This document shows, piece by piece, positions 54,376 to 57,069 of a stretch of 64,000 nt of DNA. This DNA comes from Aureimonas sp. SK2 (GTDB taxonomy: Bacteria; Pseudomonadota; Alphaproteobacteria; Rhizobiales; Rhizobiaceae). A program made the position numbers and the translations under genes. The first letter of the stretch is position 1; the number at the start of each line of letters is the position of its first letter. The stretch lies in assembly GCF_029813115.1 (NCBI RefSeq), contig NZ_JAPZDS010000002.1:186001-250000 (forward strand). The letters run 5' to 3'. Below the pieces are notes generated by a model. That model did not search any database. It had not been told where the DNA came from and worked only from the letters and a program-made list of their open reading frames with translations.

Positions 54376-54451
<76 letters not shown>

Positions 54452-55830: not shown

Positions 55831-55859
55831 TTGACGGGGCCGGCGCACGCCACTATAGG
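55831..55859 (+). promoter_or_regulatory. Probable sigma-70 promoter of rpmB
   Basis: TTGACG (55831-55836) and TATAGG (55854-55859) are separated by 17 bases, close to the consensus and well suited to a ribosomal-protein gene. It would give a leader of about 95 bases before the rpmB ATG at 55962. Confidence 0.6.
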
Positions 55860-55961
55860 GGCAGTCGATTTTCCGATCATGCCATGGGGTCGATGATCGC
55901 GCTGCCGTTCCGGCGGCGGCGCGCCCCGGAAGGCCGTATCGAACGTTTGAAAGGTGATCCC

Positions 55962-56261
55962 ATGTCACGCGCTTGCGAACTGACCGGCAAGGCCGTCCAG
56001 ACCGGCAACAACGTCAGCCACGCCAACAACAAGACCCGCCGTCGCTTTCTGCCGAACCTGTGCCAGGTGACGCTGATCTCCGACGCGCTCGGCCAGCGCT
56101 TCCGTCTGCGCATCTCGGCCCACGCGCTCCGCTCGGTCGAGCACCGCGGCGGCCTCGACGCCTTCCTCGCGAAGGCCGCCGAGCACGAGCTGTCGCAGAA
56201 GGCCCGCCTTCTGAAGCGCCAGATCGCCAAGAAGACCGCGACGACGGCCGAAGCCGCCTGA
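55962..56261 (+). CDS. rpmB: 50S ribosomal protein L28
   Basis: A 99-residue basic protein of the large ribosomal subunit. [20 protein letters not shown] and [14 protein letters not shown] are diagnostic. The ATG at 55962 follows GAAAGGTGATCCC. The upstream open frame from 55716 is not coding. A clear terminator follows, so it is transcribed alone. Confidence 0.97.
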
Positions 56262-56289
56262 GGCGCTTCGCCCAGCGATCCTTCGAAAG

Positions 56290-56312
56290 CGCCGCCCCTC
56301 GGGCGGCGTTTT
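56290..56312 (+). terminator. Rho-independent terminator of rpmB
   Basis: CGCCGCCC (56290-56297) pairs with GGGCGGCG (56301-56308) across a CTC loop and is followed by TTTT, 29 bases past the rpmB stop codon. It separates rpmB from the riboswitch-like element and the transporter gene. Confidence 0.88.
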
Positions 56313-56337
56313 CGCGTTTGCCCCTCGAAGCATCGAC

Positions 56338-56368
56338 GCTGGTGCCATACCCCAGCCTAAAAAAATGG
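56338..56368 (+). promoter_or_regulatory. preQ1-I-like riboswitch pseudoknot at the yhhQ start
   Basis: The element folds as an H-type pseudoknot with preQ1-I proportions. P1 GCTGG (56338-56342) pairs with CCAGC (56352-56356). L1 is TG. P2 CCAT (56345-56348) pairs with ATGG (56365-56368). L2 is ACC, with the ACCCCAG string shared with the Thermoanaerobacter aptamer, and L3 is A-rich (56357-56364, CTAAAAAA). P2 would bury the ATG or the GGA before a GTG at 56380. The downstream gene imports queuosine precursors, the known partner of preQ1 riboswitches. Confidence 0.65.
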
Positions 56369-57069
56369 AACGACCCGCCGTGACCCTGTCCCGCCGCACC
56401 GTCCTGCCGGTGATCGCCATGACGATCATCGTGCTCGCCTCCAACATCGCCGTCCAGTTCCCTGTCCAGGGCACGCTCGGCCCCCTGTCCTTGGCCGACC
56501 TCCTCACCTGGGGCGCCTTCGTCTACCCCTTCGCCTTCATCGTCACGGACGTGAACAACCGCCTGTTCGGGCCGGCCGTGGCGCGGCGCGTTGTCTATCT
56601 CGGCTTCGCGGCGGCGGTGGTCAGCTCCATCGTGTTTCCGCCGATCCTGCACCGGCTCGGCCTGACGCCCTTCGAGACGGAGGCGGGTCGCCTCCTGCGC
56701 ATCGCGCTGGCGAGCGGCATGGCCTTCCTGATGGCCCAGCTTCTCGACATCCTGGTCTTCAACCGGCTGCGGCGCCTGTCCTGGTGGAAGGCGCCGCTGG
56801 CGAGCGGCATCCTCGGCACGATCCTCGACACCGCCCTGTTCTTCTCGCTCGCCTTCGCGCCGGTCTTCGTTTTCCTCGGCCCCAACGAGCCCTTCGCGCT
56901 GGAAGCCGCGCCCCTGTTCGGCCTTCTCGCCCTGGAGGCGCCGCGCTGGGTGTCCTGGGCGCTCGGCGACTTCGGCGTGAAGCTGATCATCGCGGTCTTC
57001 GGCCTCGTGCCGTACCGCGTCGCCGTCAACGCCTTCCTGCCCTATCGCGAGGTGCCGACGCCGGCCTGA
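56365..57069 (+). CDS. yhhQ: Queuosine precursor transporter (VUT/YhhQ family)
   Basis: A 234-residue inner-membrane protein of the VUT family (COG1738) with six hydrophobic helices, which imports queuine precursors such as preQ0 or preQ1. Typical stretches are LASNIAVQFPVQ, LLTWGAFVYPFAFIVTDVNNRLFG and the DTALFFSLAF helix. ATG 56365 has no ribosome-binding site; GTG 56380, with GGAA upstream, is an alternative start. The start region overlaps a preQ1-I-like pseudoknot, implying feedback control by preQ1. The 3' end overlaps the convergent phytase-like gene by 28 bases. Confidence 0.9.
   Translation: MERPAVTLSRRTVLPVIAMTIIVLASNIAVQFPVQGTLGPLSLADLLTWGAFVYPFAFIVTDVNNRLFGPAVARRVVYLGFAAAVVSSIVFPPILHRLGLTPFETEAGRLLRIALASGMAFLMAQLLDILVFNRLRRLSWWKAPLASGILGTILDTALFFSLAFAPVFVFLGPNEPFALEAAPLFGLLALEAPRWVSWALGDFGVKLIIAVFGLVPYRVAVNAFLPYREVPTPA

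Follow-up and report, generated by a model that had tools for sequence, protein, structure and literature searches.

The leader of yhhQ in Aureimonas sp. SK2 contains a 31-base pseudoknot that is very likely a preQ1-I riboswitch, most like type III, acting as a translational OFF switch on the queuosine precursor transporter gene downstream. The element occupies positions 56338 to 56368 of the window (the whole 64,000-nucleotide stretch analyzed here, from contig NZ_JAPZDS010000002.1). It probably belongs to a fourth preQ1-I subtype, missed by Rfam, that is widespread in the family of Rhizobium, Mesorhizobium, and Aureimonas: through one compensated base pair, a clasp on the Shine-Dalgarno sequence, as in type III, would have become a clasp on the start codon (AAGG to AAUG), the aptamer would come in two forms that can replace each other (U7, in which base 8 stays unpaired, and G7, which has a fourth P2 pair), and Aureimonas would have been re-plumbed to Shine-Dalgarno hiding with the aptamer kept.

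Architecture and genomic setting

The stretch reads GCUGG UG CCAU ACC CCAGC CUAAAAAA AUGG, and its parts follow one another in the H-type pseudoknot order of preQ1-I riboswitches (P1–L1–P2–L2–P1′–A-rich L3–P2′); letters, coordinates, and order of parts are all as the initial annotation gave them. The gene that follows encodes a Vut_1 protein (PF02592, E = 2.9e-27) that also scores over the cut-off of TIGR00697, the queuosine precursor transporter, in agreement with the identification as yhhQ made in that annotation. The features of the region, all on the forward strand, are as follows.

56338–56342 (+): P1 5′ strand, GCUGG, read from the letters; the inner CUGG/CCAG is found in 175 of 180 elements as parsed
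56343–56344 (+): L1, UG; the U is fixed by the scan pattern, and the second base is G in 103/180 and U in 77/180
56345–56348 (+): P2 5′ strand, CCAU; the outer pair, between its first base and G56368, covaries in 103/103 G-type elements
56349–56351 (+): L2, ACC; C56351 holds the place of the preQ1-I specificity cytosine
56352–56356 (+): P1 3′ strand, CCAGC; in most relatives this place reads CCAG-GA, a Shine-Dalgarno sequence
56357–56364 (+): L3, CTAAAAAA (that is, CUAAAAAA); the A-run is retained in alignments
56365–56368 (+): P2 3′ strand, AUGG; its AUG is the probable start in most relatives and, going by frame counts, probably not in the window
56367–56369 (+): GGA, which shares two of its three bases with P2 and is the likely weak Shine-Dalgarno sequence of GTG 56380
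56380–57069 (+): yhhQ (Vut_1), queuosine precursor transporter; the likely start by comparison is GTG, and the open frame from ATG begins at 56365
55962–56261 (+): rpmB, ribosomal protein L28, the upstream gene (PF00830, E = 8.6e-26; TIGR00009 over cut-off)
56290–56312 (+): 8-bp hairpin, CGCCGCCC-CTC-GGGCGGCG, plus TTTT; possible weak rpmB terminator, absent from the calls of the terminator scan

The computed fold of the window stretch contains P1, and its folding energy, obtained with a program that does not fold pseudoknots, is unremarkable (z = −0.75). The pseudoknot is nevertheless no chance fold, a conclusion that rests not on energy but on its conservation across the genus and the family.

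A terminator had also been proposed to isolate the element from rpmB. The hairpin at 56290 to 56312 is perfect and is followed by TTTT, but the terminator scan called nothing at 55840 to 56420, and a custom hairpin-plus-T test found a terminator-like hairpin within 110 bases upstream of just 34 of the 180 elements, leaving the isolating terminator weakly supported. No sigma-70-like promoter was found at 55840 to 56420. At three loci elsewhere (L241, L243, and L248), P1 is immediately preceded by a hairpin and its T-run, with no room for a promoter between the two.

Distribution within the family

When PF02592 was sought in 61 genomes and the leaders were then read, the element was present before yhhQ in all 21 Aureimonas genomes. 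At E ≤ 1e-4, a covariance model built from 15 sequences, with P1 as its sole helix (R1), has matches in 356 of 394 family genomes and in 99 of 109 family genera; the model was trained on the element, its hits are biased toward it, and a portion of the family hits was read individually. Among 397 genomes drawn from the order, R1 matched 18 of 20 other family members at E ≤ 1.4e-7, the two missed being genomes of 1.5 to 1.6 Mb, and no genome of this draw from outside the family fell under E = 2.8e-4. A pattern scan of named genomes matched at least 118 stretches. Among the 80 matches listed with titles, one is a Desulfuromonadaceae bin (L124) and one is titled just “Bacterium” (L138); the remaining listed titles, which include Rhizobium, Sinorhizobium, Agrobacterium, Mesorhizobium, Brucella, and Bartonella, are names of Hyphomicrobiales. 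The element is linked to yhhQ: a Vut match lies directly downstream of 170 of the 173 distinct elements read, and the three without one consist of two elements with 14 and 97 bases of sequence after P1 (L161 and L212, respectively) and the stray match L124.

Thirty-eight family genomes gave no R1 match at E ≤ 1e-4, and 20 of these were searched for Vut, which was absent from 9 and present in 11. Among the 11, G025 has a divergent element (L254, E = 3.1e-4) and G519 a decayed one (L267); the leaders of the others hold no intact element. Leaders of Vut loci missed by the regular expression or situated outside the family were checked in sets of 18 and then 11 loci (G024, G025, and G026 being in both), and these 18 + 11 leaders hold no intact element apart from that of G025 (L224, divergent); at two of the 18 loci (L230 and L232), the Vut match is too weak to place the start. 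Small-genome relatives thus keep yhhQ with a decayed element (L267 of G519), with a remnant-like string (L278 of G026), or with none (L265 of G200 and L273 of G409). One genome, G668, has two strong element matches, on contigs C30 and C32, perhaps reflecting two yhhQ copies or a mixed assembly. A recurrent weak R1 match, CTGGTGGCATNACCCAGCA (L067, L068, L070, L074, L255, and L257), has neither A-run nor AUG and lies in a similar, coding-looking sequence of several genomes, by eye a translation factor gene, so that we regard it as a chance likeness. Elsewhere in the class, the canonical type III pattern occurs in 2 of 385 genomes, one match (L284) lying by eye inside a coding frame and the other being L283.

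The Rfam preQ1 model RF00522, proposed in the initial annotation as a check, gives no match in the window, nor in L048, and is over its cut-off in none of the 61 genomes, among which a weak match of 14.8 bits corresponds to the yhhQ leader of G035. With the U7 member L056 it gives a full-length alignment that has P1, the U-C loop, the CCC, and the A-run in correct register, at 10.8 bits versus a gathering score of 39. As a positive control, the E. coli K-12 yhhQ leader (201 bases) likewise gives no match at E ≤ 10; in a whole-genome control, 10 of 14 genomes, including E. coli, have a match at E ≤ 10, location not given. Because the model also misses the leader of a known E. coli riboswitch, its negative result decides nothing, and we set RF00522 aside as an arbiter. 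The sole Rfam match over cut-off within the window is a tRNA gene at 54379 to 54451 on the reverse strand.

Covariation and comparison with known preQ1-I riboswitches

Covariation was assessed in a set of 180 yhhQ-linked elements from a final scan that left bases 7, 8, and 31 free, fixed U6, CAU, and UG, and demanded CC after the specificity C while leaving the specificity C itself free. Left out of the set were two elements with a stop in the translated stretch (L097 and L141), L124 (which has no Vut), elements with fewer than 600 bases after the AUG, and duplicates as judged by the first 300 bases. In the G7 elements, the outer P2 pair (8-31) is Watson-Crick in 103/103 (G8-C31 in 67 and C8-G31 in 36), whereas in the U7 elements bases 8 and 31 are unpaired in 77/77: C8 there faces A31 in 50, U31 in 15, and C31 in 12, but never G31. 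The rule that G7 goes with pairing and U7 with its absence thus holds in 180/180 elements, where 2,000 shuffles of base 31 average 98 and peak at 117, and in 36/36 distinct cores, where the shuffles peak at 28. On a quick YhhQ tree, G7/U7 changes 7 times and pairing changes 7 times, and within G7 bases 8 and 31 change 3 times each; the usable independent pairs on this tree are concordant in 3/3 and 4/4 cases, which are too few for a sign test.

Elsewhere in the element, there is less variation to exploit. P1 is nearly invariant in the 180 elements (L173 breaks one pair); among 12 hand-chosen sequences, two of its pairs have both partners changed, in E. coli and L254. The specificity C before the P1 3′ strand is present in 179/180 elements as parsed, the exception being L029, which has a 4-base L2 and is parsed one base off; the base preceding it is A in 138, C in 31, and U in 11. 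The L1 uridine occurs in every element read, that of the window included, although the scan patterns demand it, and its invariance within the family, like that of the P2 core CAU/AUG, is partly a matter of how the pattern was constructed. Where the initial annotation looked to covariation of both helices among relatives, P2 bears it out clearly at its outer pair, and P1, being near-invariant, shows little. The case for covariation therefore draws on a single P2 pair, a small number of tree events (7 and 3), and one gammaproteobacterial comparison sequence.

That comparison sequence is the E. coli K-12 yhhQ leader (L046), which reads UUGGG-UUCCCUCAC-CCCAA, then a linker and AAAAAGG. Type III was reportedly defined by McCown et al. 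in 2014. A crystal structure is available for the E. coli riboswitch, in which, following the open text of PMC10622847, the pairs C9-G30, C10-G29, and U11-A28 form, the Shine-Dalgarno sequence (A27-G30) lies in P2, and C8 sits in a base triple outside the P2 pairing; this position of C8 fits the unpaired base 8 of our U7 members. As far as that text describes type III, the family element shares with it the H-type pseudoknot, a 9-base P1-to-P1 loop, the specificity C just before the P1 3′ strand, the A-run before P2, and control of yhhQ. The likeness is closest in the U7 members, whose loop, UUCCAU(U/C/A)AC (ACC in 2) followed by AAUG, has UUCC-U-AC in common with type III. Where the E. coli loop reads UUCCCUCAC, the counterpart here reads UUCCAUCAC, and both partners of the 10-29 pair differ: C-G has become A-U, a compensated change that would turn the Shine-Dalgarno sequence (AAGG) into a start codon (AAUG).

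Several differences separate the two, again as type III is described in PMC10622847. The P2 3′ strand is AAUG in the family and AAGG in type III (the TG being demanded by the pattern for the 180), L3 is short and lacks the long linker, and 103 of the 180 elements have UG with the fourth P2 pair, as opposed to 77 with UU; we infer that this fourth pair, which in G7 members takes the place of the C8 arrangement, gives them a different pocket ceiling. The family element is alphaproteobacterial, whereas reports of type III come almost entirely from gammaproteobacteria, where it precedes yhhQ. The window element itself has UG for UU, CC for AC before P1 (AC being present in 138/180), and AUGG for AAGG; since it thereby departs from the strict type III rules, we call it a variant rather than a type III member.

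The remaining types are more distant, as they appear in the available text of PMC11625349. Type II riboswitches (Thermoanaerobacter tengcongensis and Bacillus subtilis) have the same fold and, like most of the elements here, AC before the P1 3′ strand, in place of which the window has CC; type II, though, hides little of the Shine-Dalgarno sequence or acts on transcription, whereas here P2 is fully paired on AUG or GGA. Type I also has the same fold, and 11 of the 180 elements resemble it in having UC before P1, but its loop is larger (by three nucleotides in the solved example) and it binds two ligands.

Expression platform, ligand, and implications

The position of the start codon relative to P2 divides the elements in two. 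The P1 3′ strand ends in GG in 156/180; in these elements an AGG or AGGA lies some seven bases ahead of the P2 AUG, which is in frame with Vut in 156/156 and is probably their start codon. The 24 elements without GG comprise all 21 from Aureimonas plus L077, L245, and L246 from two other genera, and in these the P2 AUG is in frame in 7/24 and out of frame in 17/24 (Fisher p = 1.2e-18 for GG end versus in-frame AUG, ignoring the kinship of the genomes). Frames were read from the Vut match, as the longest open frame is misleading in several GC-rich loci. Within Aureimonas, the P2 AUG is out of frame in 14/21, and an in-frame ATG or GTG lies 12 to 17 bases after its A in 21/21. A further in-frame ATG occurs at +4 in 4/21 (L006, L010, L011, and L013), making the exact start uncertain there, and an in-frame GTG lies at −23, inside the element, in 11/21. 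At L016:1331-1400, the frame opened by the P2 AUG closes after three codons, at a TAG that immediately precedes the next ATG (ATGGAACGATAGATG), and may represent a very short upstream frame.

The initial annotation had left two ways for P2 to act, by hiding the ATG or by hiding the GGA that precedes a GTG; the latter is favored in Aureimonas and the former in most other elements read. In the window, comparison with the other Aureimonas loci suggests that P2 more likely hides GGA, a weak Shine-Dalgarno sequence serving GTG 56380, than the start codon itself. GTG 56380 is the likely start because the P2 AUG is mostly out of frame in this genus and a start at +12 to +17 is always present. An unlikely alternative is that translation in the window begins at ATG 56365, with P2 masking that codon just as it would in most of the family. 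This ATG is in frame with Vut, as the same AUG is in every element with GG at the end of P1, but an in-frame position in one genome is the chance expectation, one in three; no Shine-Dalgarno sequence precedes it, and the frame counts within the genus, together with the early stop in L016, weigh against it, as does the presence of the downstream start in all 21 genomes, four of which also have the ATG at +4.

The preQ1-I interpretation of the initial annotation draws strong support from the comparison of architecture, gene context, and P2 covariation. We infer the ligand, the fold in the cell, and the direction of control, and envisage the switch as follows. The leader would fold the P1 hairpin; preQ1, when abundant, would pair with C56351, with the L1 uridine and an L3 adenine keeping it in place as in solved relatives, and would lock the loop CCAU onto AUGG to form P2, with the A-rich L3 laid along P1. 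In Aureimonas, the locked P2 would cover GGA, the Shine-Dalgarno sequence of GTG 56380; in most other genera read, it would cover the AUG start codon, with the Shine-Dalgarno sequence at the end of P1. With either platform, initiation would be blocked and import of the precursor would stop when the precursor is abundant.

Two other explanations bear on what the element senses. We give little credence to the idea that fold and mechanism are as proposed and a different 7-deazaguanine, such as preQ0 or queuine, is the natural ligand, with the fourth P2 pair of G7 members and the CC marking a changed pocket. The base before the specificity C does vary, and, per the open text of PMC10723273, E. coli YhhQ-type transporters carry both preQ0 and preQ1, and one from Bartonella henselae has gained queuine transport; against this, E. 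coli type III strongly prefers preQ1 over preQ0 (PMC10622847, open text). Also against it are the genomes that lack QueA, which is needed solely after preQ1 insertion: among 27 chosen family genomes, QueF is over cut-off in 17 and QueA is present in 24, and the three genomes without QueA (G026, G200, and G409) all keep Vut and have no intact element. It looks as if these small-genome relatives lost the sensor along with the queuosine pathway, although four genomes with QueA and Vut that lack the element (G024, G491, G532, and G566) speak against a strict rule. The window genome has both QueF (on the same contig, outside the window) and QueA, and so can both make and import the precursor; four element-bearing genomes among the 27 searched (G021, G033, G035, and G542) have no QueF match and may depend on precursor uptake.

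Highly improbable is a reading in which the stretch responds to no ligand at all and is a conserved initiation region or protein site whose P1 and P2 tune yhhQ translation. In most relatives, the core is indeed an ordinary initiation region (Shine-Dalgarno sequence, spacer, and AUG) that would be conserved on its own account, but this leaves unexplained the 8-31 pairing in every G7 element, the loop common to the family and E. coli, and the retention of the fold in Aureimonas despite the moved start codon. A preQ1-responsive switch of yhhQ translation is the reading we retain.

Among the open papers surfaced by literature searches (including PMC3766115, PMC2258182, and PMC10907184), none describes the element in these bacteria or a preQ1-I riboswitch that clasps a start codon, and in the open text of a survey of pathogen riboswitches from 2022, preQ1 is listed for neither E. 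coli nor Brucella abortus (PMC9495176). What would be new here, on the sequence comparisons presented, is the start-codon clasp in most elements read, the change of platform in Aureimonas, and the invisibility to Rfam; some of the sequences may already be in the alignment of McCown et al. 2014. A 2024 review of the riboswitch family notes, in its open text, that searches aimed at a hidden Shine-Dalgarno sequence miss translational switches (PMC11625349), and, unlike the targets of such searches, most members here would clasp the AUG, with the Shine-Dalgarno sequence at the edge of P1. Hiding of the start codon is already known among riboswitches, from a model of the TPP riboswitch (PMC11751092, open text), but inside a preQ1-I aptamer it would be new. 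Natural members that combine the same aptamer with either platform would make it easy to compare the ways in which a riboswitch can block initiation, and, if the interpretation is true, a queuosine riboswitch that goes unreported by the standard library is present in hundreds of genomes from well-studied bacteria.
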